From: a virus
IMG/VR virus record: IMGVR_UViG_3300043410_001673
Coordinates: 1-20,295 of that record
Strand: one strand, 5' to 3'
Length of the DNA stretch: 20,295 nt
Shown: one piece after another, positions 1-19,107 of the stretch
Numbering within the stretch: position 1 is the first letter of the stretch
How the letters are laid out: each line of letters starts with the position of its first letter
Position numbers and translations under genes: made by a program
Notes under the pieces: model-generated
Databases searched by the model: none
Told to the model about the DNA's origin: nothing
What the model saw: the letters and a program-made list of their open reading frames with translations, nothing else

Positions 1-2
1 CT

Positions 3-1808
3 GCGGCAACTGTGTTCCATAAAGAAGAACCCAATAGTGCAAGAATGCGTTACATAAAGGAATATTACAATGCGGCTTCTGACGGCTTATTCACTCTCGC
101 TACTCCTGTTCTTGCTGGGCTTGGGACACCTACAAAGCAGTTTTCTAGTTGTGTACTCATTCGCAGTGATGATGACCTTGACTCCATTTTTGCTAGTGGA
201 GAAATGATGGCCAAGTATGCCAGCAAACGTGCTGGCATTGGACTAGAAATTGGACGCCTACGCCCGTTGGGATCTCCTATAAGGGGAGGTGAAATAATGC
301 ACACCGGCATGATCCCTTTTCTAAAGAAGTGGTTTGGTGATTTACGTTCATGCTCACAAGGAGGTATCCGTAATGCAAGTGCTACTGTTTTTTATCCTAT
401 TTGGCATCATCAGTTCGATGATCTTATTGTGCTTAAGAATAATCAAGGTACTGATGAAACACGAGTCCGTCACATGGACTACGGTGTTGTGTTATCCTCC
501 TTCTTCTGGAGACGATTTCGAAATAAGGAAACTATAACCTTTTTTGATCCAAACGAAGTACCAGACCTGTATGAAGCATTTTATAAGAATACCGCATTGT
601 TTGAAGAATTATATGTAAAATATGAAAAACAAAAGGGTCTTCGTAAAAAACAAATGGCCGCAGAAGATGTGTTTAAAGGCGGCATTCTAAAAGAACGTAC
701 TGACACTGGACGCATCTATCTAGTGTTCATAGACAATGTACAAAATCAAGGACCATTTGATCCTGAGTATCATACAATTTACCAGAGTAATCTTTGCTGT
801 GAAATACTTTTACCTACTAAACCCTTTAAACGTTTGGATGACAGCGATGGTCGTATCGCTTTATGTACCCTCGGTTCAATTAACTGGGGTGCGTTCCGTA
901 ATCCAGAAGACATGCGTCGTGCTTGTCGCATACTCCAGCGTAGCTTGTGTAACATACTGGACTATCAAGACTTTCTTTCCATACAGTCTAAACTAAGTAA
1001 CGATGAAATTCAACCATTAGGTATTGGTGTTACTAACTTAGCCTATTGGCATGCCAAGCGTGGATTGCGTTATGGCGAGAAAGATGCACTACAAGATGTT
1101 AAGAGCTGGATGGAACACCAAGCATTCTACTTAACGGAAGCAACAGTTGAGTTGGCCAAAGAACGAGGTCCATGCACACATAGTGAGAAGACACGTTACG
1201 GTCAGGGTACGTTTCCGTGGGAGCTAAGAGCCAAAGGTGCTAATGAACTAGCAGACTTTACCCCAGAACTAGATTGGGAAACCTTACGTGCTAATATGAA
1301 GCAGTATGGTGTTCGCAATGCTACACTTATGGCCATTGCTCCAGTAGAAAGTTCTAGTGTTGTCATTAATTCAACTAACGGTATTGAAATGCCTATGAGT
1401 CTTATTAGCACAAAAGAATCAAAAGCAGGCAGCTTCACACAGGTTGTTCCGGAATATCACAAGTTAAAGAATAAGTATCAATTAATGTGGGAACAAACAG
1501 ACTGTGTTGGATACTTAAAAACAGCGGCTGTGCTGGCTGCGTATGTTGACCAAAGTATTAGTACAAATACATTCTATAATCCAGCACACTTTTCAGAACG
1601 TAAAGTACCAACTACACTAATTGCTAAAAATTTAATGCAAGCCCAACTATGGGGATTAAAAACATTTTATTATAGTCTTATCAACAAACAAGGCGCCAAA
1701 GCCCCTACAGAAGCTATTGCTGAGGCGTATATAAATGGTCATAATATTGCAGGAATAAATGGACATTTTATTGACCTTGAAGAAGATTGTGAGGCTTGCA
1801 AGCTATGA
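3..1808 (+). CDS. nrdA: Ribonucleotide reductase class Ia, large (alpha) subunit, 5'-truncated by window edge
   Basis: Catalytic subunit that reduces ribonucleoside diphosphates to deoxy forms for phage DNA synthesis. The frame is open to the left window edge, so the N-terminal ATP cone and true start lie outside; about 600 residues remain of a family length near 760. Visible active-site parts are the FSSC redox cysteine (codon 150-152), the N-L-C-C-E loop with the radical cysteine (codon 795-797) between the catalytic Asn and Glu, the second redox cysteine in ALCTL (864-866), the adjacent Tyr pair in TFYYSL that relays the radical, and the C-terminal CEACKL tail that is reduced by glutaredoxin or thioredoxin. 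The RHMDYGV and GSPIRGGE segments match E. coli NrdA. The stop overlaps the next start as ATGA. It leads the nrdA-59aa-nrdB-grx transcription unit. Confidence 0.97.
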   Translation, partial: AATVFHKEEPNSARMRYIKEYYNAASDGLFTLATPVLAGLGTPTKQFSSCVLIRSDDDLDSIFASGEMMAKYASKRAGIGLEIGRLRPLGSPIRGGEIMHTGMIPFLKKWFGDLRSCSQGGIRNASATVFYPIWHHQFDDLIVLKNNQGTDETRVRHMDYGVVLSSFFWRRFRNKETITFFDPNEVPDLYEAFYKNTALFEELYVKYEKQKGLRKKQMAAEDVFKGGILKERTDTGRIYLVFIDNVQNQGPFDPEYHTIYQSNLCCEILLPTKPFKRLDDSDGRIALCTLGSINWGAFRNPEDMRRACRILQRSLCNILDYQDFLSIQSKLSNDEIQPLGIGVTNLAYWHAKRGLRYGEKDALQDVKSWMEHQAFYLTEATVELAKERGPCTHSEKTRYGQGTFPWELRAKGANELADFTPELDWETLRANMKQYGVRNATLMAIAPVESSSVVINSTNGIEMPMSLISTKESKAGSFTQVVPEYHKLKNKYQLMWEQTDCVGYLKTAAVLAAYVDQSISTNTFYNPAHFSERKVPTTLIAKNLMQAQLWGLKTFYYSLINKQGAKAPTEAIAEAYINGHNIAGINGHFIDLEEDCEACKL

Positions 1809-1984
1809 ATCAAGAACTTACAACAGATGATTTAATTGTAACATGGTTGAATTATTGGGGTATTAACAATATTCCACTAATTGAAGAAGAGGCAAAATCG
1901 TATATTCTTCAAGCATTGAGTGATGAAAATACTATCAAGGTTTATCTTGATAACGAAGGTGCATTAATAATCGAAGGTGATTGA
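1805..1984 (+). CDS. Small acidic hypothetical protein between nrdA and nrdB (59 aa)
   Basis: I do not recognise this protein. The ATG at 1805 overlaps the nrdA stop (ATGA), and its TGA overlaps the nrdB ATG (TGATG), so it is probably translationally coupled to both. A TTG 9 nt upstream is in frame but less likely. The protein is acidic, starts MNQELTTDDLIVTWLNYWG, looks alpha-helical in its first 40 residues and ends in a short beta-like stretch (VYLDNEGALIIEG). It has no cysteines and no membrane segment. Its place between the two reductase subunits suggests a role tied to the reductase, for example as an assembly or regulatory partner, but that rests only on position. Confidence 0.75.
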   Translation: MNQELTTDDLIVTWLNYWGINNIPLIEEEAKSYILQALSDENTIKVYLDNEGALIIEGD

Positions 1985-3084
1985 TGAGCATAAAACAATA
2001 TAATTTAAACACAAAGACAGACTATCTAAATCGAAAGATGTTCTTGGACCCTGCTGGTCCTGTTACTATTCAACGTTTTGAAGAAGTAAAGTATAATAAA
2101 ATTGCAGACTTTGAAAAGACAGCCCGTGGTTTCTTTTGGGTTCCTGAGGAGATTAGTCTAAGCAAAGACGCAAATGATTTTAAGGATGCATCTGATGCAG
2201 TTAAACATATCTTCACTAGCAATTTGCTTCGCCAAACAGCTCTTGATAGTCTGCAAGGTCGCGGCCCAAGTCAAATCTTTACTCCGGTCGTAAGCCTGCC
2301 AGAACTAGAAGCTTTAGTTTATAACTGGACGTTCTTTGAAACTAATATTCATAGTCGCAGTTACAGTCACATTATTCGCAACATCTATAACGTGCCTAAG
2401 GAAGTGTTCAACACTATCCACGACACTAAAGAGATTATTGACATGGCAAGTAGTGTAGGCGCATACTATGATAAACTACATATGATCAATTGCCTAAAAG
2501 AGGCAGGTGAAAATATTGAAGAAGCAATACATATCAAAGCAATCTATCTAGCACTACATGCCAGTTATGCATTAGAAGCATTCCGCTTTATGGTTAGTTT
2601 TGCTACATCACTTGCCATGGTTGAGAACAAGATCTTTATTGGCAATGGCAACATTATTAGTTTAATTCTACAAGACGAATTACTACACAAAGGTTGGACA
2701 GCTTTCTTAATTAATCAAGTAGTCAAAGAAGATCCACGTTTTGCTCGTACTGCACAAGAATGTCAAGAAGAAGTTATACAAATTTATAAAGATGTTATAC
2801 GTGAAGAAAAAGCCTGGGCAGATTATTTGTTCCAAAAAGGTCCTGTTATTGGACTTAATGCCAACATTCTAAAAGATTTTGTCGATTACACAGCAGTCGG
2901 CGCCCTAAAGGATATCGGCATAAAATACTGGGCACCTGCGCCAAAATCAACACCAATCCCATGGTTTAACAAGCATAGTGACACAAGTAAAAAACAAACA
3001 GCATTACAAGAAAATGAGTCTACCAATTATGTGATTGGAATTATGAGTGATACGATAAATTATGAAGAGCTACCTCAATTTTAA
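1984..3084 (+). CDS. nrdB: Ribonucleotide reductase class Ia, small (beta) subunit
   Basis: Carries the di-iron tyrosyl radical used by NrdA. I chose the ATG at 1984, which overlaps the upstream stop; the protein is 366 aa, close to E. coli NrdB (376). Metal ligands seen are Asp88 (LDSLQGR), Glu119, His123, Glu198 (ALEAFRF), Glu232 and His235 (QDELLH). The radical Tyr is Tyr127 in HSRSYSH. The C-terminal tail that docks on NrdA is present (ends ELPQF). One oddity: Glu and His of the first helix are separated by three residues (E-T-N-I-H) instead of the two in E. coli and T4 (E-T-I-H). The gene is followed 9 nt later by glutaredoxin. Confidence 0.97.
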   Translation: MSIKQYNLNTKTDYLNRKMFLDPAGPVTIQRFEEVKYNKIADFEKTARGFFWVPEEISLSKDANDFKDASDAVKHIFTSNLLRQTALDSLQGRGPSQIFTPVVSLPELEALVYNWTFFETNIHSRSYSHIIRNIYNVPKEVFNTIHDTKEIIDMASSVGAYYDKLHMINCLKEAGENIEEAIHIKAIYLALHASYALEAFRFMVSFATSLAMVENKIFIGNGNIISLILQDELLHKGWTAFLINQVVKEDPRFARTAQECQEEVIQIYKDVIREEKAWADYLFQKGPVIGLNANILKDFVDYTAVGALKDIGIKYWAPAPKSTPIPWFNKHSDTSKKQTALQENESTNYVIGIMSDTINYEELPQF

Positions 3085-3093
3085 GGATAAAAA

Positions 3094-3333
3094 ATGAAAG
3101 CAGTTGTATGGAGTAAAAATCATTGCCCGTTTTGTGATCAGGCCAAGGGCCTACTCAAATTAAAGGGTATTGAAGTTGAAGAAAGAAATATTAATAACGG
3201 TTGGACTAGGGAAGCATTGTTAGAAGCAGTACCCAACGCCAGAACTGTACCACAAATCTTTTTAGATGATAAATTAATAGGTGGATATACCGAACTTCAA
3301 AAATATTTAGAAAAGGAAAAACATGCTAATTGA
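3094..3333 (+). CDS. grx: Glutaredoxin
   Basis: Small thiol-disulfide oxidoreductase of 79 aa, the expected electron donor for the NrdA C-terminal cysteines. The thioredoxin-fold active site CPFC is at residues 11-14, the cis-proline motif TVPQIF is near 51-56, and the GGYTEL glutathione-binding turn follows. It starts 9 nt after nrdB with an AAGGAT ribosome site overlapping the nrdB stop, so it belongs to the same operon. The last 11 nt overlap the next gene. Glutaredoxins can also bind or transfer Fe-S clusters, which may matter given iscU and iscA 1.3 kb downstream, but the CPFC form here is the classical dithiol type. Confidence 0.95.
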   Translation: MKAVVWSKNHCPFCDQAKGLLKLKGIEVEERNINNGWTREALLEAVPNARTVPQIFLDDKLIGGYTELQKYLEKEKHAN

Positions 3334-3679
3334 AAACGAAACTAAACCTGGACAGATTGTTACAATCAAATTAACCAGCGGTGAAGAAATTATTGCAAAG
3401 TTAGAAGAAAATACTGCTAATACACTTAAAGTATCTAGACCGGTAGTTTTAACAATGACACAAAACGGACTAGGAATGGCGCCATATCTATTTACTGTAG
3501 ATATTGATACATTAGTCCGAATAGATAAAAAAGTATTAGTAGTACTTGAACAAACAGAAACTGAAGCTGCCGAACAGTATAATAAAGCAGTAGATGATTC
3601 TCGTCTTGCAGAAGTAACTAAAAAGAATAAAAATGCGGCCATGGGTGTAGCACCTAAGGTTAGCCCAGAAAAGGTATAA
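3323..3679 (+). CDS. LSm/Hfq-like small beta-barrel protein (118 aa)
   Basis: The first 80 residues read as a five-strand SH3/Sm-like barrel: the KPGQIVTIKLTSGEEIIAKL start resembles the Sm1 pattern (hydrophobic strands with a G-E-E-I turn), followed by NTLKVSRPVVL and a VDIDTLVRIDKKVLVVL strand pair. The C-terminal third is charged and probably disordered. Proteins of this shape often bind RNA or DNA, but the family assignment here is by pattern only. The ATG overlaps the glutaredoxin gene by 11 nt and has AAGG upstream (GAAAAGGAAAAACATG). The PAAR gene follows 7 nt after the stop. Confidence 0.65.
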   Translation: MLIENETKPGQIVTIKLTSGEEIIAKLEENTANTLKVSRPVVLTMTQNGLGMAPYLFTVDIDTLVRIDKKVLVVLEQTETEAAEQYNKAVDDSRLAEVTKKNKNAAMGVAPKVSPEKV

Positions 3680-3686
3680 TTAGACT

Positions 3687-3983
3687 ATGCCATCAATAGC
3701 AAGAGATGGAGATCCTACTACTACAGGACATGGATGTGATGCTACCACTACTGTAACCGGACCTTCAGGTAATGTTTTTGCTAACAATATTGGTGTTGAA
3801 AGACAAGGAGATCCAACTTCTGCCCATACCATTCCATCAGGTAATTTGTGTGTTCCACACAGTGCTGTGATAAATGTAGGTTCTGGTAATGTGTTTGTAA
3901 ACAGTATACCTGTTGCTCGGGCAGGTGATAGCACAGATAGCGGAAGTATAACATCTGGGTCTCCTAATGTTTTTGCCAATTGA
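3687..3983 (+). CDS. PAAR-domain tail spike tip protein
   Basis: A 98-aa glycine- and proline-rich beta protein with the PAAR repeat pattern: M-P-S-I-A-R-D-G-D-P at the start, a GHGC turn, repeated SGNVFANN and SGNVFVNS motifs, and AVINVGSGNVFV. PAAR proteins form the sharp metal-stabilised cone at the end of the central spike of T4-like tails (gp5.4) and type VI secretion systems. The length equals T4 gp5.4 (97 aa). His and Cys residues (H15, C17, H47, C54, H57) are candidate metal ligands. It is a virion gene next to metabolic genes, which is common in marine T4-like phages. Confidence 0.88.
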   Translation: MPSIARDGDPTTTGHGCDATTTVTGPSGNVFANNIGVERQGDPTSAHTIPSGNLCVPHSAVINVGSGNVFVNSIPVARAGDSTDSGSITSGSPNVFAN

Positions 3984-3984
3984 T

Positions 3985-4013
3985 TTGACAAAACTGATCT
4001 CTTGTTTTAATAT
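3985..4013 (+). promoter_or_regulatory. Sigma70-type promoter for the histone-like gene
   Basis: Exact TTGACA at 3985-3990, 17-nt spacer, then TAATAT at 4008-4013, which keeps the most conserved first two and last two bases of the -10 box. It begins right after the PAAR stop and would start transcription near 4020, about 25 nt before the ATG at 4046. Confidence 0.75.
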
Positions 4014-4045
4014 AAAACAATCTACGAACATTACAAGGAGATATT

Positions 4046-4243
4046 ATGTCAAATAGATATTCAGATTTTACCAAAATTATAGAAGCAATGGAAAGCGACT
4101 TCGAAAAATTTTATGATAAAGAAGTAGGTGCCGCAGGAACTCGTGTACGCAAACATTTGCAAGAATTAGCAAAGCTCTGTAAAGAAGTACGTAACGATGT
4201 TACCGCAGTTAAAAACGCTCGCAAAGAGGCCTCGGGCAAATAA
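4046..4243 (+). CDS. Small basic histone H1/Hc1-like protein (65 aa)
   Basis: The pattern GAAGTRVRKHLQELAKLCKEVRNDV, followed by a Lys/Arg-rich tail, resembles the Hc1 (bacterial histone H1-like) group, which often has a K-A-A-x-R-V-R core. The N-terminal half (SDFTKIIEAMESDFEKFYDKE) is acidic and helical. A DNA-binding, chromatin-like role in the infected cell is possible. It has its own strong promoter and an AAGGAG ribosome site 5 nt before the ATG, so high early expression is likely. The family call comes from motif memory and is not certain; the coding call is solid. Confidence 0.75.
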   Translation: MSNRYSDFTKIIEAMESDFEKFYDKEVGAAGTRVRKHLQELAKLCKEVRNDVTAVKNARKEASGK

Positions 4244-4271
4244 ACTGCTAATCTAGTCAACAAAAACCGGG

Positions 4272-4278
4272 CTAAATA
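4272..4278 (+). promoter_or_regulatory. Putative phage late promoter (CTAAATA)
   Basis: CTAAATA 31 nt upstream of the exported-protein ATG, resembling the T4 late box TATAAATA. Similar boxes precede three virion-type genes in this window. A TATAGT at 4282-4287 is an alternative sigma70 -10 box but lacks a good -35. Confidence 0.45.
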
Positions 4279-4308
4279 CGTTATAGTATTACAGTCTAGG
4301 AGATTGAT

Positions 4309-4614
4309 ATGAAAAAATTGTTAGCTGTTTTATTATTGGTTGTTAGTGGTGCCGCAATGGCACATGGCCCTCATGGTTATTGGCACCACAACAACGGCGG
4401 TTGGAATTGGATGGCTCCGGCAATAATTGGCGGTATCATAGGTTATGAAATTAGTCGACCACCTGTTTACACATCTCCACCAGTTGTCATTCAGCAGCCT
4501 CCAGTTGTTGTCCAACAAAATCCTGTTATTATACAAGGACAAAATTGTAGTCCTTGGACACAAATACAAAATCCTGACGGAACTATAACTACTACAAGGA
4601 CCTGTACACAATAA
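4309..4614 (+). CDS. Small exported protein with signal peptide and glycine-zipper-like segment
   Basis: A classical Sec signal peptide is visible: two Lys, a hydrophobic run LLAVLLLVVSGA, then cleavage predicted after AMA at residue 18. The mature part of about 83 aa begins with a His/Gly/Trp-rich stretch, then a short hydrophobic glycine-rich helix (MAPAIIGGIIGYEI), a Pro/Val/Gln-repeat region (PPVVIQQPPVVVQQ) and a C-terminal part with two Cys. Such proteins go to the periplasm or outer membrane of Gram-negative cells, which supports a Gram-negative host. I know no specific function. SD AGGAG at 4298-4302; the stop overlaps the iscU start (TAATG). Confidence 0.8.
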   Translation: MKKLLAVLLLVVSGAAMAHGPHGYWHHNNGGWNWMAPAIIGGIIGYEISRPPVYTSPPVVIQQPPVVVQQNPVIIQGQNCSPWTQIQNPDGTITTTRTCTQ

Positions 4615-5021
4615 TGGCTTATTCAGAACAAGTTATTGATCATTACGAAAACCCTCGTAATGTAGGTAGTTTTGCTAAAGATGAAGAAGGTGTAGGTACA
4701 GGTATGGTAGGTGCACCTGCCTGCGGCGATGTTATGAAACTTCAAATTAAAGTAAATAATGATGGAGTCATAACAGATGCCAAATTTAAAACGTATGGTT
4801 GCGGAAGCGCGATTGCGTCGAGTTCGCTCGTTACTGAATGGGTTAAGGGACGGACACTTGACGAGGCGGCAAAGATCAAAAATAGCGAGATTGCTACTGA
4901 GCTTGCCCTCCCCCCTGTTAAAATTCATTGTTCAATACTTGCAGAAGATGCGATCAAAGCGGCCGTAAATGATTACCGTAACAGACACAGCCAAAGAAAA
5001 AATCAAACAGTTACTGGCTAA
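4614..5021 (+). CDS. iscU: Fe-S cluster assembly scaffold protein IscU
   Basis: Scaffold on which [2Fe-2S] clusters are built and passed to acceptor proteins. It aligns without gaps to E. coli IscU over the first 110 residues, with the same numbering: Cys37 and Asp39 (APACGD), Cys63 (YGCGSA), His105 and Cys106 (KIHCSI). The LPPVK motif at 99-103, which HscA Hsp70 binds, is intact, so the protein is probably functional with host partners. It is 135 aa against 128, because the C-terminus runs on through the first 53 nt of iscA in another frame. The central part (about 4800-4880) is much richer in G+C and uses GCG and TCG codons unlike its surroundings, hinting at a recent exchange. No iscS, hscA, hscB or fdx is in the window. 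Confidence 0.96.
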   Translation: MAYSEQVIDHYENPRNVGSFAKDEEGVGTGMVGAPACGDVMKLQIKVNNDGVITDAKFKTYGCGSAIASSSLVTEWVKGRTLDEAAKIKNSEIATELALPPVKIHCSILAEDAIKAAVNDYRNRHSQRKNQTVTG

Positions 5022-5295
5022 AAGAGGCCAGGGCGTAGGTATAAGGATAGGAGTCAAAACCACAGGATGTAGCGGTTTGGCTTACACCTTAGAATATGTC
5101 AATACATACACGCCAGAACCGGGCGTGACTAACTTTGCTCAACCGGATTTTGTAGTCCTAATTGATGCCAAAAGTCTAGTATATTTGGACGGGCTAACGA
5201 TAGATTGGGTTCGCAATGGACTCAATGAAGGATTTGATTTTAAGAATCCAAATGAGCGCGATCGCTGTGGATGCGGCGAATCATTTAGAATTTGA
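4969..5295 (+). CDS. iscA: A-type Fe-S carrier protein IscA
   Basis: A 108-aa A-type carrier that takes Fe-S clusters (or iron) from IscU to target apoproteins. The three ligand cysteines are present: Cys34 (TTGCSGLAY) and Cys100/Cys102 (CGCGESF near the C-terminus). The LNEGFDFKNPN segment matches E. coli IscA. The ATG at 4969 lies inside iscU, and the first 53 nt are read in two frames. No separate ribosome site is needed if translation is coupled. The TGA stop overlaps the -35 box of the next promoter. Together with iscU it forms a two-gene Fe-S module, unusual in a phage. Confidence 0.95.
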   Translation: MITVTDTAKEKIKQLLAKRGQGVGIRIGVKTTGCSGLAYTLEYVNTYTPEPGVTNFAQPDFVVLIDAKSLVYLDGLTIDWVRNGLNEGFDFKNPNERDRCGCGESFRI

Positions 5296-7463: not shown

Positions 7464-8759
7464 ATGATTTTAGCTTATCTATTATTAATAACAGGTTTAA
7501 CAATATCGGCGGTCGCAATCTACTATTCTGTAGTAGGTTTGACCGCTATATTTTCTGCGGCAGTTATTCCAATTATTATTATGGGGTCAGCTCTTGAAGT
7601 TGGCAAACTTGTCTGCGCCTCTTGGTTAAAGGCTAATTGGGAACGTGCTCCACGTTTCATGAAGTATTACATGATCACTGCGGTTATGGTTCTAATGCTT
7701 ATTACTTCAATGGGTATCTTTGGATTCCTATCTAAGGCACATAATGACCAAAACTTAGTGTCAGGTGATGTACAAAGTAAAATTGCAGTCTATGACGAGA
7801 AAATTAAAACGGCTAGAGACAACATCGAAGCCGACCGTAAACAACTTAAACAAATGGATGAAGCTGTGGACCAAGTTATGGGACGCAGTTCAGATGAAAA
7901 GGGCGCCGACAAAGCAGTTGCCATCCGTAGGTCACAAGCCAAAGATCGTGCGGCACTTGCTAAAGATATCGAAGCCAACCAGAAAATCATTAGTACCCTC
8001 AGTGACGAAGCCGCACCTATACGAGCTGAAGTCAGAAAAGTGGAAGCAGAAGTTGGACCAATCAAATACATAGCCAAGTTCATTTATGGTGATAAGGGTG
8101 CTGACGAAAACTTTTTAGAAAAAGCAGTAACATGGATTATTATCCTTATTGTGATCGTATTTGATCCACTAGCAGTTATCATGTTGCTAGGCGCACAAAT
8201 GACTTTTGGTTGGTTAAAAGAATCAAAAGAAAATGAGTTTCTACTACACAAAACTGTAGAACATACAGATTTGCCAACACTAGAAAAATTAGAACAAGAA
8301 TTTGAAGAATCAATAGCTACGGAAGAAGTCGTAGAAGAATTTGTTGAACAAGAAGCAGAAGACACATTTAAATTTTTAGCGGATGAGAATGATGTCTACC
8401 CTGAGGGCAAACCCTGGGAAGATAAACCTATTGTTGAAGCATCTAATGACGCTATCCTCCCGGAAGTAACATGGCCATTTCCAGAAGCAACACCACCTGA
8501 TAATGTAATTAACACAGATGTTTCTGAATTAGATAAATGGGAAACAGCAGTTGCAAGTTTACAAAATGACCTTGACGCTAAGAAACTCGAAGAAGCAGAA
8601 AAATATATCCCCCAAATGGAAAGACCGGGTGATTACCTTGTATCAACTGATAGACTAAAACCAGATCTAACAGAAGTTATCGAACCAGAAGGTTCAAAAA
8701 AAAAGACTTATATGATGAAGGACCCTACGGGACATCTTATGATTCAAACCAAGGAATAG
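7464..8759 (+). CDS. Large membrane and coiled-coil protein; zero-frame product of a frameshift pair
   Basis: 431 aa in the zero frame. Predicted membrane segments lie at about 3-24, 27-48 and 69-90; a charged coiled-coil region of about 110 residues (100-200) follows, then a fourth membrane segment at about 222-247, and an acidic tail of about 180 residues. The layout resembles a conserved membrane protein of T4-like marine phages; its role is not known to me. The ATG starts 3 nt after the upstream stop and has only a weak ribosome site, so translation is probably coupled. An A AAA AAG site at 8699-8705 near the 3' end would let ribosomes shift to -1 and make a 522-aa product. Without the shift, 17 residues follow the slip site. 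Confidence 0.85.
   Translation: MILAYLLLITGLTISAVAIYYSVVGLTAIFSAAVIPIIIMGSALEVGKLVCASWLKANWERAPRFMKYYMITAVMVLMLITSMGIFGFLSKAHNDQNLVSGDVQSKIAVYDEKIKTARDNIEADRKQLKQMDEAVDQVMGRSSDEKGADKAVAIRRSQAKDRAALAKDIEANQKIISTLSDEAAPIRAEVRKVEAEVGPIKYIAKFIYGDKGADENFLEKAVTWIIILIVIVFDPLAVIMLLGAQMTFGWLKESKENEFLLHKTVEHTDLPTLEKLEQEFEESIATEEVVEEFVEQEAEDTFKFLADENDVYPEGKPWEDKPIVEASNDAILPEVTWPFPEATPPDNVINTDVSELDKWETAVASLQNDLDAKKLEEAEKYIPQMERPGDYLVSTDRLKPDLTEVIEPEGSKKKTYMMKDPTGHLMIQTKE
8699..8705 (+). promoter_or_regulatory. Slippery heptamer A AAA AAG for -1 ribosomal frameshifting
   Basis: Within a run of nine A (8696-8704) plus G, the heptamer is in the correct zero-frame phase (AAA 8700-8702, AAG 8703-8705), the same motif as E. 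coli dnaX. A ribosome-binding-like AGAAGG at 8687-8692 sits about 7 nt upstream, as in dnaX. A possible downstream stem (GATG with CATC around CCC-TAC-GGG, about 8714-8735) is weak. Confidence 0.75.
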
Positions 8760-12017: not shown

Positions 12018-12073
12018 ATTAGATAAATTTATGATAAATAAATTTATAGAACGCCCACAGGGGATCTATAAAC

Positions 12074-12111
12074 GGGCATGGTGCCCACAATTACTCGCTT
12101 AATTAAGGAGA
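12074..12111 (+). promoter_or_regulatory. dnaK leader: GGGCA/TGCCC hairpin plus shared leader core
   Basis: A 5-bp stem GGGCA (12074-12078) / TGCCC (12082-12086) with a 3-nt loop, then GCTTAATTAAGGAGA at 12097-12111, which includes the ribosome site. The hsp20 leader has the same order and spacing. A TATAAA at 12067-12072 may be a -10 or late-type box, but no -35 fits. Confidence 0.5.
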
Positions 12112-12116
12112 ATATT

Positions 12117-14018
12117 ATGAGTAAAATCATCGGTATCGATTTAGGTACAACAAATAGCTGTGTAGCAATCTTAGAAAATGGAGTTGCTAAAGTAATCGAA
12201 AACAGCGAAGGTGCTAGAACAACACCAAGTATCGTAGCATACACTGACTCAGAAGTACTAGTCGGTGCGACGGCTAAACGACAAGCAGTAACAAATCCAA
12301 AAAACACAATTTACGCAGCCAAGCGCCTAATCGGACGTAAGTTTGAAGAGCAGGCTGTACAAAAAGATATTGACCTAATGCCTTACAAGATTGTAAGAGC
12401 TGAAAATGGCGATGCATGGATTGAAGCAAATGATCAAAAACTTGCTCCTCCACAGGTAAGCGCAGAAGTTTTGCGCAAAATGAAAAAGACTGCTGAAGAT
12501 TATCTAGGCAAAGAAGTCACACAAGCAGTTATTACAGTTCCTGCTTATTTCAATGACAGCCAACGTCAAGCAACAAAAGATGCTGGTAAAATTGCAGGCT
12601 TAGAAGTACTACGTATCATCAACGAGCCAACTGCGGCCGCCCTAGCATACGGTGTTGACAAACAAGACAAGCGTGATCGCAAAGTTGCTGTTTACGACTT
12701 AGGTGGTGGTACATTTGATATTTCAATCATTGAAATCGCAAACGTAGATGGTGACAAGCAAATTGAAGTATTGTCAACAAACGGTGATACATTCCTAGGC
12801 GGTGAAGACTTTGACCAACGTATCATGGATTACTTGGTTGATACTTTCTTAAAAGAAAGTGGTGTTGACCTAACTAAAGATGTACTAGCACTACAACGTC
12901 TAAAAGAGGCAGCTGAAAAAGCTAAGATTGAATTGTCTAGTACAGCTAGTACAGCAGTTAACCTACCATACATTACAGCAGATGCTACAGGTCCTAAACA
13001 CTTAAATGTAACAATAACTCGTGCTAAGTTTGAAAGTCTAGTAGAAGACCTAATTCAAAGATCTATTGATCCTTGCAAGATTGCTATGAATGATGCAGGT
13101 GTTTCACCTTCCGATATTGACGAAATTATTCTTGTCGGTGGCCAAACACGTATGCCTAAAGTACAAGAGGCTGTTGAAAAATTATTTGGCAAATCACCAC
13201 GTAAGGATGTTAATCCAGATGAAGCTGTAGCCGCTGGCGCCGCAGTACAAGGTGCTGTTCTAGCCGGTGACAAAACAGACGTTCTATTGTTAGACGTTAC
13301 TCCATTGAGCTTAGGTATTGAAACAATGGGTGGTGTTTTTAATAAGATCATTCAAAAGAATACAACTATCCCGACAAAAGCCAGCCAAACATATTCTACA
13401 GCAGAAGATAATCAACCTGCTGTTACAATTAAAGTTGGACAAGGCGAACGCGAATTATTCAAGTATAACAAAGAGCTTGGAATCTTCAACTTAGAAGGTA
13501 TTAATCCTGCACCACGCGGTATGCCACAAATTGAAGTTACATTTGATATTGATGCTAACGGTATCATGAAGATTAGTGCCAAGGATAAAGGCACAGGCAA
13601 AGAAAATCAAATCACTATCAAGAGCGATAGCGGTTTAAGTGATGCTGAAATCCAACGCATGGTTAAAGAAGCAGAAGAAAATGCAGAAGCAGATAAAAAA
13701 GCTACTGAATTAATTAATGCACGTAACCAAGCAGATAGTACAGTTCATTCGATGAACAAAGACTTTGAAGATGTAAAAGATCTTTTAACAGAAGAAGAAA
13801 AGACAGCATACGAATCTGCTAAAACCTCCTTAACAGAAACTATTAAAGGAGAAGATAAAGATGCTATTGATAAGGCTCTTCAAAAGTATTTTGAGGCAGC
13901 TGGTCCTGTAATGCAGAAAAAGCAAGAAAAGGCCCAAGCTGAATCAAACCCTGCTCCTCAAGGGGAACAAACCGTAGATGCGGAGTTCAAAGAGGTTGAT
14001 CCTTCTGAAAAGAAGTGA
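12117..14018 (+). CDS. dnaK: Hsp70 chaperone DnaK, full length
   Basis: 633 aa, close to E. coli DnaK (638). The ATPase domain begins [16 protein letters not shown], with the phosphate-2 motif [11 protein letters not shown] and the adenosine motif [10 protein letters not shown]. The interdomain linker [11 protein letters not shown] couples it to the substrate-binding domain, and the C-terminus keeps the VDAEFKEVD tail that resembles bacterial DnaK. It is DnaK type, not HscA. The ATG at 12117 has AAGGAG 6 nt upstream; an earlier in-frame ATG at 12078 lies in the leader hairpin and is unlikely. No dnaJ or grpE is visible, so host co-chaperones are needed. The hsp20 promoter lies in its last codons. 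Confidence 0.97.
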
Positions 14019-14024
14019 TATAAT
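13996..14024 (+). promoter_or_regulatory. Sigma70-type promoter of the hsp20-clpS-ho-aceA-bilin reductase unit
   Basis: TTGATC at 13996-14001, a 17-nt spacer and exact TATAAT at 14019-14024, across the dnaK stop. The predicted start near 14031 falls on the 5' edge of a strong hairpin. No heat-shock sigma32 boxes are seen. Confidence 0.7.
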
Positions 14025-14028
14025 AAAT

Positions 14029-14079
14029 TATAGGGCGCCGGTGGTCGGGCCCTATACAGTTCTTGCTTAATAAAGGAGA
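14029..14079 (+). promoter_or_regulatory. hsp20 leader: strong 5' hairpin plus shared leader core
   Basis: TATAGGGC (14029-14036) pairs with GCCCTATA (14049-14056), and an inner CCG/CGG stem (14038-14040, 14046-14048) closes a 5-nt loop. No T-run follows, so it is not a standard terminator. GCTTAATAAAGGAGA at 14065-14079 is identical to the dnaK leader core at 14 of 15 positions. It may stabilise the mRNA 5' end or regulate translation. Confidence 0.55.
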
Positions 14080-14085
14080 TCTAAA

Positions 14086-14511
14086 ATGACACAACTAAGA
14101 ACTATTGATGCGCAAGCTCTTGCCAATATAAACAGAGCACTAGTAGGTTTTGACCGTATATTCAATGATCGTTTTTTTCAAGGCGCTCAAAACGGTAACT
14201 ATCCCCCACATAATATTGTAAAATACAGTGAAGATCACTACGGAATTGAAGTAGCAGTTGCTGGATTTAGCAAAGACGATATTTCAGTTGAGGTAAATCA
14301 AGACCAACTTAAAATTACAGGAAACAAATCTGTAGATGATACTAAAGAATATATTCATAGAGGATTAGCTTTTAGAGATTTCTCACAAACTTATACTCTA
14401 GCTGAATATATGGAAGTAAAAGGTGCAGAAGTAAAAGATGGCATGCTTAAAATTACAATTGAGCGCCATGTTCCTGAAGCACTAAAACCACGTTTGATTG
14501 AAATCAAATAA
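14086..14511 (+). CDS. hsp20: Small heat shock protein Hsp20 (IbpA-like)
   Basis: 141 aa. The alpha-crystallin domain spans about residues 43-135: YGIEVAVAGFSKDDISVEV, LKITGNKS, then YIHRGLAFRDFSQTYTLAEYMEVKGAEVKDGMLKI (quoted in parts), with the C-terminal I-x-I anchor seen as LIEIK. The N-terminal arm FDRIFNDRF is like IbpA. It holds unfolding proteins in a refoldable state for DnaK, which is encoded just upstream. Hsp20 is common in T4-like marine phages. It is the first gene after the promoter at 13996, and a perfect hairpin separates it from clpS. Confidence 0.95.
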   Translation: MTQLRTIDAQALANINRALVGFDRIFNDRFFQGAQNGNYPPHNIVKYSEDHYGIEVAVAGFSKDDISVEVNQDQLKITGNKSVDDTKEYIHRGLAFRDFSQTYTLAEYMEVKGAEVKDGMLKITIERHVPEALKPRLIEIK

Positions 14512-14520
14512 TTAAATAAC

Positions 14521-14544
14521 ATTGGGGGAGGAAACTCCCCCAAT
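14521..14544 (+). terminator. Perfect 10-bp hairpin with GAAA loop between hsp20 and clpS
   Basis: ATTGGGGGAG (14521-14530), GAAA loop, CTCCCCCAAT (14535-14544). The downstream sequence is CTTCGGAG, not a T-run, so it may act as a partial terminator, an RNase block protecting the hsp20 mRNA, or a processing site that sets hsp20 above the downstream genes. Confidence 0.6.
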
Positions 14545-14558
14545 CTTCGGAGAAATAA

Positions 14559-14861
14559 ATGCCAGGAACCGACATTCAATTAGACGAAAAAGTTAAAGTA
14601 ACAGTAACAGAACCTAAACGTTGGAAAGTTATTTTCCTTAATGACGATACTACACCTATGGAATTTGTAATCGGTGTACTACAAGAAATTTTTAAACACA
14701 CCGCAGATTCTGCTAGAGCAGTAATGCTACAAGTTCATGAAACAGGTAGCGGCATTGCAGGTATTTACAGTTTTGAAATAGGTGAAGCCAAAGCAGTTGA
14801 AGCTACTAACGAAGCTAGGACAAATGGATTTCCTCTTCAAATAAAATTGGAAGAAGAATGA
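14559..14861 (+). CDS. clpS: ClpS adaptor of ClpAP protease
   Basis: 100 aa, the normal ClpS length. It brings N-end-rule substrates to ClpA. The N-degron pocket residues are visible: Asn28, Asp29 and Asp30 in FLNDDTTPMEFV, and His60 in LQVHETGSGIAGIY. The C-terminal [12 protein letters not shown] ending also matches. No clpA or clpP is in the window, so it would redirect the host protease. A GGAG ribosome site is 8 nt upstream. The stop overlaps the heme oxygenase start (ATGA), so they are probably translationally coupled. Confidence 0.95.
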   Translation: MPGTDIQLDEKVKVTVTEPKRWKVIFLNDDTTPMEFVIGVLQEIFKHTADSARAVMLQVHETGSGIAGIYSFEIGEAKAVEATNEARTNGFPLQIKLEEE

Positions 14862-15400
14862 GTTTAAAAGATATTACCGCAGATCTACACGATAAGGCGG
14901 AAGATACTCCATTTATGAAAGCAGTCTTTGCTGGCGAATTACCTATTAAAGTATGGGAAGAATGGACCTACTGGCGCACCATGTTTTATAGTGCTATTGA
15001 AGACAAGTGTGAACAAGGTAATTTGCTTGATGATTTACAAGGGATTAAACGTGCTACATCCTTGATGCAAGATTATATTGGAATGCGCAATGGTAATTGG
15101 TTACCAAGCAATAATTGTAATAACCCGGCATTGAACGAATATTTAGATTACATTAAAACACTAACATCTGATCGAGCATTAGCTCACTTGTATGTATGGC
15201 ACATGGGTGACTTATACGGCGGGCAAATGATTAAAAAAGTTATTCCCGCACCTACGCACTACGCATTAGAGTTTGAAGATGCTACTACATTAAAAAATAA
15301 TCTACGTGCCAAACTTACTGACGATTTAGGCCCAGAAGCACGTACAGCATTTGAATTTGCTATTAAAATGTTAAATGAGGTATACAAAATAGATAACTAA
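14858..15400 (+). CDS. ho1: Heme oxygenase
   Basis: 180 aa, soluble, shorter than cyanobacterial HO1 (about 240). It opens heme to biliverdin, releasing CO and Fe2+, with electrons from ferredoxin. The proximal heme ligand is His11 in [15 protein letters not shown], and the distal glycine helix is [11 protein letters not shown] (residues 117-127), where most HO proteins have GDLSGGQ. No C-terminal membrane anchor is present. It is coupled to clpS by ATGA and followed 20 nt later by aceA. The bilin reductase two genes downstream would use its product. Confidence 0.93.
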
Positions 15401-15420
15401 TAATATACAAGGAGTTATCT

Positions 15421-16629
15421 ATGAAAAAGCGTAATTACACACAAGACACAGTAAGAAAGTTAGGAGGATCTGTTCAGATTGAACACACACTAGCTAAAAG
15501 AGGAGCAGGTAAATTAAGGCATTTACTTGCAACAGAACCATATATTAATACATTGGGCGCATACAGCGGCCAACAAGCGGTACAACACGCCAAAGCCGGA
15601 CTAAAAGCAGTTTATCTAAGTGGATGGCAAGTAGCCGCAGCCGCAAACACCGCAGGACAAACATATCCAGATCAAAGTTTGTATCCTGTAAACTCAGTAC
15701 CCGCAATCGTTAAACAGATTAACAATGCTTTCCGTCGTGCTGATCAAATTGAATACTCAGAAGGCAATGTAACAACAGATTACTTTTTACCTATTGTGGC
15801 CGATGCTGAAGCAGGCTTCGGTGGCGCCTTAAATGCATACGAATTAATGATGGCTATGATTGAAGCAGGTGCCGCAGGTGTTCACTTTGAAGATCAATTG
15901 TCAAGCGAAAAGAAATGTGGTCACTTAGGCGGTAAGGTTCTTATTCCAATCAGCCAAGCAATACGTAATTTACAAGCCGCCCGTCTAGCTAGTGACGTGG
16001 CAGGCGTTGACACAGTTATCATGGCACGTACTGATGCTGAGTCAGCAACATTAATTACTAGCGATCATGATCCATTAGATAAGGAGTTTATCATAAATGA
16101 ACGAACAGAAGAAGGATTTTACAAGTTCCGCAACGGAATCGATGCTTGTATTTCTAGGGGCCTGGCTTATGCTCCTTACGCTGATTTACTTTGGTTTGAA
16201 ACATCAACACCTGATATCAGACAAGCTAAAAAGTTTGCCGACGCCATACACGCTGAATTCCCAGACCAAATGCTCGCCTACAATTGCTCTCCCAGTTTCA
16301 ATTGGCGCAAATTCTTGTCAGTAGAAGAATGTGAAACATTCCAACGAGAACTAGGTGAATTGGGTTATAAGTTCCAATTTATCACATTGGCCGGTTTCCA
16401 TTCAGTTAACCTAGCAACGTTTGAGCTTGCCGAGGCATATCGTCTACGCGGTATGGCAGGTTATAGTGAAATGCAACAACGTGAGTTTGAAGCACAGGTT
16501 CGTGGCTTTACCACTGTTAAACATCAACGTGAAGTAGGCGTTGGCTATTTTGACTTAATCAGCGAAGCAGTTGGCGCTACAAGTACAGTGGCAAATAAAA
16601 CATCAACAGAGTCGGATCAGTTTCATTAA
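15421..16629 (+). CDS. aceA: Isocitrate lyase
   Basis: 402 aa against 434 in E. coli; only about 25 N-terminal residues are missing and the end (TESDQFH) matches, so it is complete. It splits isocitrate into succinate and glyoxylate. The catalytic KKCGH is at 164-168 with Cys166; the metal-binding [10 protein letters not shown] is near 126-135; the substrate-binding SPSFNW and FITLAGFHS segments are intact. Long stretches agree with the E. coli enzyme. An AAGGAG ribosome site lies 7 nt before the ATG. It is placed between heme oxygenase and the bilin reductase, and its stop overlaps the reductase start (TAATG). No malate synthase is seen in the window. Confidence 0.96.
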
Positions 16630-17309
16630 TGAGTAATATTTGGGATAAACTAATCGAATTAGAATCCTATTTTGAATCGCGATTCTATGCCACTGGTGCC
16701 ATTAAGCACGAGCCCGGCATGGATCGCTTCAACCAACCTGGTTGGATAAACAAAGTATGGAAAAGTTCTACATATCGAAGAGCACATATCGATGTTGTGG
16801 ATGCTAGGGAAACAAAGGGACTTTGGATGATGCATTGTTGCGTTTTCCCCTATGTTGATAATCCTGCTCCTATATTTGGATTTGATGTGATTGCAGGTAA
16901 AAATAAAATTACAGGCTGTTTTATCGATGTAAGTCCAACATGTTGGGACGATCATCCTATGCTTCCGTGGTTTGCTGTTGAAGCCAGTCGATTAACGTGG
17001 CATAAAGTTAGACCGTTACCCGATTGGGCAAAGGCAATTTTTAGTCCTAACATAATTGCTGCCGGTAATGTGCAAGAAGAAGCAGAATTAGAACAAATTT
17101 TAGAAGTCGCTAAACGTACATTAGACATCTACTTAGAATCGCTAGCCGATACTGCTAATTTGGATGTAGATGCATCACAAAAACAAAACTTCTACGCTCA
17201 ACAACAAAAACTTAACCCGCACACGCCTAAAGTTATGGCCAGTTTAGGCTTAAATGAAGAGGATGTACGTGCATTTATACAGGAATGTTTGTTCCCAGAA
17301 ATAGCATAA
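16629..17309 (+). CDS. pcyX: Ferredoxin-dependent bilin reductase, PcyA/PcyX-like
   Basis: 226 aa. It reduces biliverdin with electrons from ferredoxin. Family motifs: NKVWKSSTYRRAHIDVVDAR, then GLWMMHCCVFPY with His69 (equivalent to PcyA His88) and PIFGFDVIAG with Asp86 (equivalent to PcyA Asp105; the same 17-residue spacing), TGCFIDVSP, and the C-terminal YAQQQKLNPHTPKVMASLG and LFPEI. PebA, PebB and PebS have Asn rather than His at the first site, so the PcyA side is favoured. The PcyX group, known from marine phage metagenomes together with a heme oxygenase and reported to make phycoerythrobilin, is the best match; the exact product cannot be read from sequence. It is the last gene of the hsp20 unit. 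Confidence 0.88.
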   Translation: MSNIWDKLIELESYFESRFYATGAIKHEPGMDRFNQPGWINKVWKSSTYRRAHIDVVDARETKGLWMMHCCVFPYVDNPAPIFGFDVIAGKNKITGCFIDVSPTCWDDHPMLPWFAVEASRLTWHKVRPLPDWAKAIFSPNIIAAGNVQEEAELEQILEVAKRTLDIYLESLADTANLDVDASQKQNFYAQQQKLNPHTPKVMASLGLNEEDVRAFIQECLFPEIA

Positions 17310-17312
17310 ATA
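17305..17312 (+). promoter_or_regulatory. Putative phage late promoter (CATAAATA)
   Basis: CATAAATATT overlaps the bilin reductase stop and lies 7 nt before the next ATG, matching 7 of 8 positions of the T4 late consensus TATAAATA. If used, the mRNA would start almost at the ATG, and no ribosome site is visible before this gene. Confidence 0.5.
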
Positions 17313-17319
17313 TTGTACT

Positions 17320-19107
17320 ATGCGATTTTTAGAGTTTAATTTAGCAGAAGCTACCCTCCAACGAACCTCCACTAGTAGCTGGGCAGACTACCTACAAAAT
17401 TTAATAAATGCCAAGGATATTGGCGTAGGTAAGCAGGGCGAGCGCCACAGCGGCCAAAAATTAGACGACAAGTCAAAATCAATTGTAAAATCTCTTATTG
17501 CCGGATTCGCTAACGCTAAAAATAAACTTGATTTTGCCAAACACATTGAAGATACTGAAGTTACACTACTTCCTGATAAAATAGTTGTTCCTATAAAACA
17601 CATTCACAAAAGTGCTGAAATTAAGGGATCCGGTGCAGATTCCGGTAAAGAAAAGAAACCGTGGAATGAAGGGGAAGTGGCAGAAACTATTTTAGGAGCG
17701 GCTTTACTTGCTAGATTTACTAGCAAAAAAGACATCACTGAAAAACAAGTTTGGGACGCACTAAAACTTCTAGCTAATAATGTTGTTCCTGGCGGCTTCC
17801 GTGTAGCTAATAAGCGCAATAAAAAAAGCCCTATAGATATGACAGCTTTAAATAAACCAATGAACAATTTGGTTATTGATAAACTTGTTCATAACAAAGC
17901 AGAATTAAAACAACTATATCCCGAAGGTGTTAAAGCATTAGAAGAAAAAATAGAAGCGTGTGCTTCTTATGTAAATGAATCTAGCAAAGTTATAGCCGCA
18001 TTAGAGCAGGCAGACGCTAGTCCCGGCGCACCTATTACTATTAAAACAGATGGTGTCGGTGACCAAAAAGGTACCAAAGCAGATTTACAAATTAGTGTCG
18101 GCGATTATAAACAATTATTAAGTTTAAAAGTAAACGATATTAAGCAATTTGGCCAAGATAGTGGTTCAAGTGGAACCATTATAACTACCTTCTTCAAGCG
18201 TTTTATTCCAAACTTTGATATTTCCGATTTATATATGAACAACGGTGAGCCAATTCCGTGGACTCCTGAAACAGGAGAAGGTTGGCCTGAGATGGATAAT
18301 AAAAAAGTCACTAATCAGCTAAAGGCTAACAATTTGTGGGACGCGGCACTAAAACAAGTTTATAAATTAACCGGCATGGCTTATCAAAAGGCAGCGGCAC
18401 AGTTACAAGATCAATTATCAACACCCTCTGGCGCCGCAGATGTTGTTACTAATATATACAACGGTATCATTCATCATGTACAAGGCAGTGCTCAATTTCA
18501 AACCTTAGTTATTTTAAATCCTAGTGCTAAACAAGCATGGAAGGAATTAGAATTTGGACCTAGCCTACAACAAGCTCTAAGCAATTACACTTTAGAAGTA
18601 GATGTTGAAATAGGTGAACGAGGTGGCGGCAATCATAAATTAAGAATTTATGGTACTCCTGCAACACCCGAAGCACAACTTGCCGCCCAGATTAAAATAA
18701 ATTCAAAGGCCGATGCTAAAAAAGCCAAGAAAAAAATAGATTCGGGCGAGGTGCTAGCATCGTCGCCTCGAGAACTGCTTTTCCAATTAAGATCATATCA
18801 ACAAGAAAGCGGTAGTATGAGAAATCCTGTTGAAATGGGGCCGTTACTTAAAGACCTAACCGAAGTACAAAAAATAGACGATGTACCAGATTCTACGCCC
18901 GACCAACCACTTGTACAACAACCAGATCAAATTGAGCAACCTGCACAACAAACAATACAAGAGCCTCAGCAAGGCCAATCAAACTTTACATCAAAGATGC
19001 AACCTATTGAACCTGCAACTGATGTATTACCCCAAGACGATCAAGAACCTGATGAGCAATCAGATGATTTAGACCGCATGAGAAAAAATGCAGGTATCAC
19101 AGTATAA
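17320..19107 (+). CDS. Putative internal head protein with capsid-targeting leader and possible nuclease fold (595 aa)
   Basis: The first 11 residues MRFLEFNLAEA look like the T4 internal protein leader (IPIII starts MKTYQEFIAEA), ending in the L-x-E|A site of the head protease. That predicts packaging in the prohead and delivery into the cell. Residues 115-150 hold a helix with Glu119 and Glu122 (NEGEVAETILGAALLARF). Residues 253-280 read KADLQISVGD...LLSLKVNDIKQFGQ, with Asp255 and Lys270 placed as in PD-(D/E)XK-like nucleases that carry an S-L-K form of the last motif; this is a weak, pattern-level call. The region 500-595 is rich in Gln, Pro and Asp and probably disordered. There is no ribosome site, only a late-type box right before the ATG. 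The next gene converges from the other strand. Confidence 0.75.
   Translation: MRFLEFNLAEATLQRTSTSSWADYLQNLINAKDIGVGKQGERHSGQKLDDKSKSIVKSLIAGFANAKNKLDFAKHIEDTEVTLLPDKIVVPIKHIHKSAEIKGSGADSGKEKKPWNEGEVAETILGAALLARFTSKKDITEKQVWDALKLLANNVVPGGFRVANKRNKKSPIDMTALNKPMNNLVIDKLVHNKAELKQLYPEGVKALEEKIEACASYVNESSKVIAALEQADASPGAPITIKTDGVGDQKGTKADLQISVGDYKQLLSLKVNDIKQFGQDSGSSGTIITTFFKRFIPNFDISDLYMNNGEPIPWTPETGEGWPEMDNKKVTNQLKANNLWDAALKQVYKLTGMAYQKAAAQLQDQLSTPSGAADVVTNIYNGIIHHVQGSAQFQTLVILNPSAKQAWKELEFGPSLQQALSNYTLEVDVEIGERGGGNHKLRIYGTPATPEAQLAAQIKINSKADAKKAKKKIDSGEVLASSPRELLFQLRSYQQESGSMRNPVEMGPLLKDLTEVQKIDDVPDSTPDQPLVQQPDQIEQPAQQTIQEPQQGQSNFTSKMQPIEPATDVLPQDDQEPDEQSDDLDRMRKNAGITV

Follow-up and report, generated by a model that had tools for sequence, protein, structure and literature searches.

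A predicted PD-(D/E)XK-like nuclease with a T4-type capsid-targeting-like leader in an apparently phage-restricted protein family

In phage T4, the protease gp21 removes short N-terminal peptides from IPI-III and Alt, which are proteins of the core, and the capsid-targeting sequence (CTS) localises foreign proteins to that core, as described in two reports (PMC9958956, PMC3012670). The second of these portrays the T4 internal proteins as diverse defence proteins behind one conserved CTS. Among cyanophages, published work gives a virion proteome for S-CREM2 (PMC10665884, Table 3), and records both gp21 and the cytidylyltransferase T4-GC190 in virions of S-SM1 (PMC3037559). The protein studied herein has in common with the T4 internal proteins a short aromatic/aliphatic leader that ends in hydrophobic-x-E before a small residue; here, as in T4, unrelated cargo stands behind a common tag, and gp21 is encoded in related records. 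It differs from them in its size of 595 residues, in its predicted nuclease cargo, in leader hydrophobics that are off by one residue, and in packaging that is a prediction. The best-supported reading of the gene, and one that we hold to be fairly probable, makes its predicted product a PD-(D/E)XK-like nuclease which, across one large part of the family, would bear a leader for capsid targeting of the T4 type. The tag is already known from T4-type internal proteins, and nuclease cargo behind it was not found described in the literature searched.

The window, by which we mean the whole stretch of DNA analysed, is a virus record of 20.3 kb and a fragment. It most likely comes from a large phage of the T4 superfamily, because Mosig, XacN1, RAS14 and SCTP-2, all of them large phages, have relatives of a neighbouring window protein (7464-8759), and because a T4-type gp32 is encoded in a record of the same clade (G001). 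The product of the gene begins MRFLEFNLAEATLQR; its reading frame, the leader with the following residues (MRFLEFNLAE↓ATLQR, the arrow marking the predicted cut), D255, S268-L269-K270 and QFGQ at 276-279 are all as a sequence-only reading of this DNA had described them (Table 1). Directly upstream (14858-17309) lie consecutive genes for heme oxygenase, isocitrate lyase and a ferredoxin-dependent bilin reductase, the nuclease frame coming after the bilin-reductase-like gene. Genes for the first and the last of these three are again found upstream of several leader-class nucleases (e.g. L002 and L003), where, unlike in the window, isocitrate lyase has no place between them. Further regions of the window (1-5295 and 12078-14861) are rich in host-like genes, recognised by eye except for DnaK, which was recognised by Pfam: ribonucleotide reductase subunits, glutaredoxin, a PAAR-like protein, IscU-/IscA-like proteins, full-length DnaK, Hsp20 and ClpS.

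Table 1. Features of the nuclease gene and of its upstream flank (window coordinates; residue numbers refer to the 595-aa product).
Feature	Position	Strand	Remarks
T4-type late-promoter-like box CATAAATA	17305..17312	+	ends 7 nt before start codon
ORF, 595 aa, ATG start	17320-19107	+	stop codon ends at 19107; intact
Capsid-targeting-like leader MRFLEFNLAE (residues 1-10)	17320..17349	+	predicted gp21 cut E10↓A11
N-terminal accessory domain, residues 11-112 of predicted mature protein	17350..17655	+	model secondary structure
Predicted PD-(D/E)XK-like nuclease core, residues 116-520	17665..18879	+	pLDDT mostly >90
Invariant E122, first core helix (117-135), motif N-x-G-[DE]-x-x-E	17683..17685	+	alignments, model
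Invariant D255, motif DQKGTKAD, at start of strand 256-260	18082..18084	+	alignments, model
S268-L269-K270, (D/E)-x-K counterpart, strand 263-271; S268, K270 invariant	18121..18129	+	alignments, model
Q276-F-G-Q279, both Q invariant	18145..18156	+	alignments
C-terminal conserved residues R491, R501, N502, E505	18790..18834	+	alignments
Disordered Gln/Pro-rich tail (521-577) and short final helix (579-590)	18880..19104	+	pLDDT 28-41 over residues 531-580

What would such a protein do? According to the reading we prefer, it would be an internal protein of the head, made late by a large phage of the T4 superfamily, with residues 1-10 acting as a T4-type capsid-targeting sequence that would carry it into the prohead scaffolding core. 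There, a gp21-type protease would cut between E10 and A11, and the mature protein, with ATLQ at its N-terminus, would remain among the packaged DNA and enter the next host at infection. The cargo would be a PD-(D/E)XK-like nuclease (E122, D255, S268-x-K270), most like the monomeric HinP1I type, which in the cell would most likely either cut non-phage DNA, be it that of the host or of a rival, or act on DNA or RNA ends jointly with other packaged nucleic-acid enzymes (DUF6267, cytidylyltransferase). Packaging of the 595-aa protein itself, its cleavage, injection, activity and target are what we infer. If a nuclease is packaged, one must also ask how the DNA of the phage escapes it inside the head, and which target is cut in the first minutes of infection.

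The family to which the protein belongs is common, uncharacterised and apparently phage-restricted. No family model in Pfam, NCBIfam or PADLOC matches the 595-aa protein, a BFVD search returned only the family itself at E below 0.001, and the profile matches PHROGs phrog_3560 (1.6e-6), with phrog_33928 belonging to the same family by HMM; both are of unknown function, and the cyanophage members examined there (ACG-2014f, Syn19, S-RIM8) lack the leader, unlike the window protein. A first scan of IMG/VR gave 198 relatives, and the family is now found in at least 311 viral contigs, whereas no relatives were found in bacterial genome contigs, each scan having used one peptide pattern. Isolates with members are the cyanophages ACG-2014f, Syn19, Syn2 and S-RIM8 and a Desulfovibrio phage; S-CREM2 has none. 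E122, D255, S268, K270, Q276 and Q279 are invariant in alignments of 45 and 41 rows, most rows being 20-30% identical to the window protein (20-66% over the 41 rows). In the latter alignment, G118, G245, K253, G282 and Y355 are invariant as well, and R491, R501 and E505 nearly so. Upstream of the nuclease at one locus (L049:4517-5842) is a 441-aa protein (MRYSDFKFE...), the N-terminal part of which weakly resembles the N-terminal domain of the nuclease; with nothing beyond that weak resemblance, we do not find it convincing as a paralogue.

The sequence-only reading had suggested a restriction-endonuclease-like fold for the core, and the predicted structure points the same way. The AlphaFold model of the window protein (pLDDT 83.7) is confident in the core and of low confidence at residues 1-6, 11-15 and 529-580, while that of a minimal natural member of 353 aa (L080) reaches 92.9. 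An E on the first core helix, a D at the start of a strand and S-x-K on the next strand is the arrangement expected for PD-(D/E)XK enzymes, save that S in place of D/E before x-K is atypical for them. HinP1I and MspI likewise carry a non-acidic residue in that place. The five best VIA matches of the window model are all PD-(D/E)XK nucleases, namely HinP1I (Z 7.4 over 217 of 247 residues at 8% identity, and Z 7.0), Dna2 (6.0 and 5.8) and HhaI (4.8), none of them conclusive, Z below 8 not being proof and Z of 7-8 being typical of models that have no clear match. For the minimal member, DpnI (Z 3.8) is the only nuclease listed, and nothing reaches Z of 5 or more; Foldseek gave no PDB match at E below 0.001 for either model, and sequence profiles found nothing meaningful against the PDB. 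Invariant residues and topology are therefore the ground for assigning a PD-(D/E)XK-like fold, to which the structural matches lend moderate support. Outside the core, the accessory domain is missing from minimal members of about 350 aa, leaderless members starting either at that domain (MAxL...) or at the core (MASFNKGD...), and the tail (521-590) is not seen in the aligned cyanophage members.

HinP1I and HhaI, which stand among the best fold matches, bring to mind a special case of the packaged nuclease, in which the protein would be a restriction-modification-like exclusion enzyme that cuts DNA without the modification proper to the phage, while the genome in the virion would be shielded by a methylase of the phage. 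We consider this rather unlikely. A type II restriction endonuclease is indeed the best fold match, and a Dam-type methylase gene lies directly downstream of the ACG-2014f member, but ACG-2014f is the only one of the annotated phage loci examined to have an adjacent methyltransferase: none was recognised beside the window gene, and none is annotated beside the Syn19 and S-RIM8 members. The scans of bacterial contigs, which found no relatives with a single peptide pattern each, likewise speak against it. Compared with endonucleases of the HinP1I/HhaI/MspI type, the window protein has an extra N-terminal domain and a tail, and is without a partner methylase.

Could the protein be packaged and injected, and still not cut? 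A DNA-binding protein, a decoy or an inhibitor of host defence, like T4 IPI, would suit the diversity of defence proteins that the account of the T4 internal proteins places behind one CTS (PMC3012670). Moreover, a nuclease packed with its own genome would need restraint, the motif reads S-x-K rather than D/E-x-K, and the fold match is moderate. On the other hand, six catalytic-type residues that never vary at about 20-30% identity fit catalysis better, and because of this invariance the decoy that the sequence-only reading had kept as an alternative to a nuclease becomes less likely; a non-cutting role altogether seems to us improbable.

The case for packaging begins with the leader. The sequence-only reading had likened it to that of T4 IPIII, and the likeness is real at the cleavage-type end, hydrophobic-x-E↓A, while the spacing departs from it, with F3, F6, L8 and E10 in the window against Y4, F7, I8 and E10 in T4. 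In particular, the window leader, having N at position 7, does not fit a strict T4 motif (hydrophobic 4, F7, hydrophobic 8, E10). The exact IPIII spacing is not known to be required, and the related leaders MKYHEFLIE and MRADEFLVE are one residue shorter than it. Since the exact IPIII spacing is absent, we call the window leader a T4-type variant, and regard the protein as a candidate rather than proven capsid-targeted member.

Is such a leader more than a chance string of residues? Members of the leader class (n=24) carry N-terminal leaders of 9-17 residues, with boundaries set by eye, such as MRFIEFKLTE↓S, MRSREFLKE↓A, MRADEFLVE↓A, MRDLLDKLDLITE↓S, MRDLINIITE↓A and MKYHEFLIE↓A. P3 is hydrophobic in every one of the 24, and in 22 it is combined with A, S or T at P1', an arrangement found in 4.7% of internal windows of these proteins and at 4 of 67 leaderless N-termini; the 24 sequences are not independent, yet they span branches of more than 2 changes per site. 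Chance is thus a poor account of the leader. A first, loose regular expression, applied to entire records, had barely exceeded background (20 N-terminal against 23 internal matches). The leader is kept in divergent members (21-28% identity), and in a tree of the core its bearers group in a single deep clade (23 of 24 rows) and in another, separate clade of five. Leaderless members, which make up most of the family, open with Met-Ala-x-Leu where the leader class often has E↓A-x-Leu; some of them begin exactly where the predicted mature protein would, and a profile comparison aligns the residue after the leader E with the residue after their Met, albeit weakly (probability 30%). From these alignments, the leader looks like a cassette gained by or lost from an otherwise complete protein, and it is mostly of low confidence or disordered in the structure model. 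With so many members having no leader, packaging would not be a universal role of the family. In three members (L074, L075 and L056), a second leader-like stretch, RKTFKSFIAEE, occurs just before the nuclease core.

A leader of this kind calls for a protease, and the sequence-only reading had proposed a search for one of the gp21 type. In fact, gp21 (PF03420) is encoded in four records (G011, G013, G014 and G022), gp23 in the first three of these and the portal protein in G013, and both G013 and G014 carry leader-class nucleases, with MKYHEFLIE↓AD and MKASEFIFLIE↓KG, respectively. In the records closest to the window, all of them fragments, searches for gp21, gp23 and portal were negative; nor were capsid genes recognised in the window, which lacks a portal match and does not include its own gp23. 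The capsid protein gp23 of G013 and of G014 shows KQYLSE↓AAT and KSHLTE↓AAT at residues 41 and 43, L-x-E↓A sites that adjoin its conserved body at the expected place of the cut, and a scaffold-like protein beside it has many L-x-E-A sites. Judging by these motifs, a protease with the preference seen at the gp23 sites would cut the nuclease leaders too. Taken together, a conserved leader with a gp21-type end, and gp21 along with a capsid protein of the same motif in related records, support the capsid-targeting interpretation. G014 also encodes a CCA-adding-like nucleotidyltransferase (IVGGAVRDLMLG) with the leader MRALEFLVEA (G014:C1:48767-49963, locus L137).

Leaders of the same kind mark proteins that are found in cyanophage virions. 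The strict T4 motif stands at the N-terminus of 5 of 50 S-CREM2 virion proteins and of 0 of the 166 others (p=5.7e-4), a value that is optimistic, as the motif, though derived from the IPIII leader, was chosen after viewing the S-CREM2 N-termini; an earlier, too narrow motif gave no significant result there. The five bearers among the 216 proteins are a SAM hydrolase, a kinase, a cytidylyltransferase and two hypothetical proteins. In particular, the cytidylyltransferase/NMNAT-like protein (T4-GC190; gp154 in S-CREM2), detected in virions by mass spectrometry, is a non-structural enzyme with a leader of the window's kind, MKKFSAFLNEAE at the start of the Syn19 orthologue and MKNFSSFLTEA in gp154. 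It is a different enzyme from the window protein, its gene often neighbours the nuclease gene, and the portions of the published papers on these proteins that were consulted contain no mention of the leaders. Another S-CREM2 virion protein, gp12, with 28 unique peptides and an annotation as Cas9/HNH nuclease that sets it apart from the window protein, has RFASFMAEA at residues 18-26 (L142:7704-10313), near its N-terminus rather than at the start; either the annotated start may lie too far upstream, or the tag may be internal.

That the nuclease acts only inside the infected cell, in processing, repair or recycling of phage DNA, with the N-terminal peptide as a conserved helix or partner-binding segment, is in our view quite improbable. 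In its favour, most members are leaderless, and several have genes for a gp41-type helicase, MazG and an NTase beside them in the replication region. Against it stand the gp21-type site at the end of the leader, the clean loss of the leader from other clades, its poor order in the structure model, and the fact that unrelated virion proteins share leaders of this kind.

The leaderless members have a feature of their own. Namely, a leader-type protein occurs within the next three genes at 26 of the 60 leaderless loci that have downstream genes, as compared with about 2% of genes in whole records. The tagged neighbours tested are DUF6267 (PF19782, with a KWDGxP-like motif), CTP_transf_like (PF01467) and an upstream HAD phosphatase, and one family among the tagged neighbours is a published virion protein. 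The nuclease therefore repeatedly accompanies tagged proteins that, by their domains, are probably packaged nucleic-acid or nucleotide enzymes. At one locus, a T4-type leader precedes a fusion of DUF6267 with a cytidylyltransferase-like domain (L163:7250-9034); at another, a HAD-type phosphatase with the leader MKSFIEFLEEG lies directly upstream of a leaderless nuclease (L047:5115-5738). We tentatively raise the possibility, itself doubtful, that large aquatic phages of the T4 superfamily package a kit of enzymes for injection, each with a T4-type tag, comprising the PD-(D/E)XK nuclease, the DUF6267 KxDG-motif protein, the cytidylyltransferase and the HAD phosphatase, which would act on host or phage nucleic-acid ends before phage gene expression; leaderless nucleases may be carried by tagged partners. 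More generally, if a sequence tag predicts what a phage brings into the cell, many genes without a known role in abundant marine phages would become injected effectors that can be tested, including this family, which is common and unnamed in Pfam and NCBIfam, and its tagged neighbour DUF6267, also of unknown function.

Finally, the gene is preceded by a box that resembles a T4 late promoter, the core of which is ATAAATA. One of TATAAATA, CATAAATA or GATAAATA stands at 7-8 nt from the start in the window and at loci L002, L003, L009, L010, L012 and L021, and NATAAATA occurs only twice in the window, the other occurrence being at 12033. ATAAATA precedes 13 of 22 leader-class genes and 25 of 246 other genes of the same loci, an enrichment whose p-value is overstated, as the sequences are related. 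The box is conserved in the window's clade; its closeness to the start codon counts against the preferred reading, as it would imply a nearly leaderless mRNA with almost no 5' UTR.
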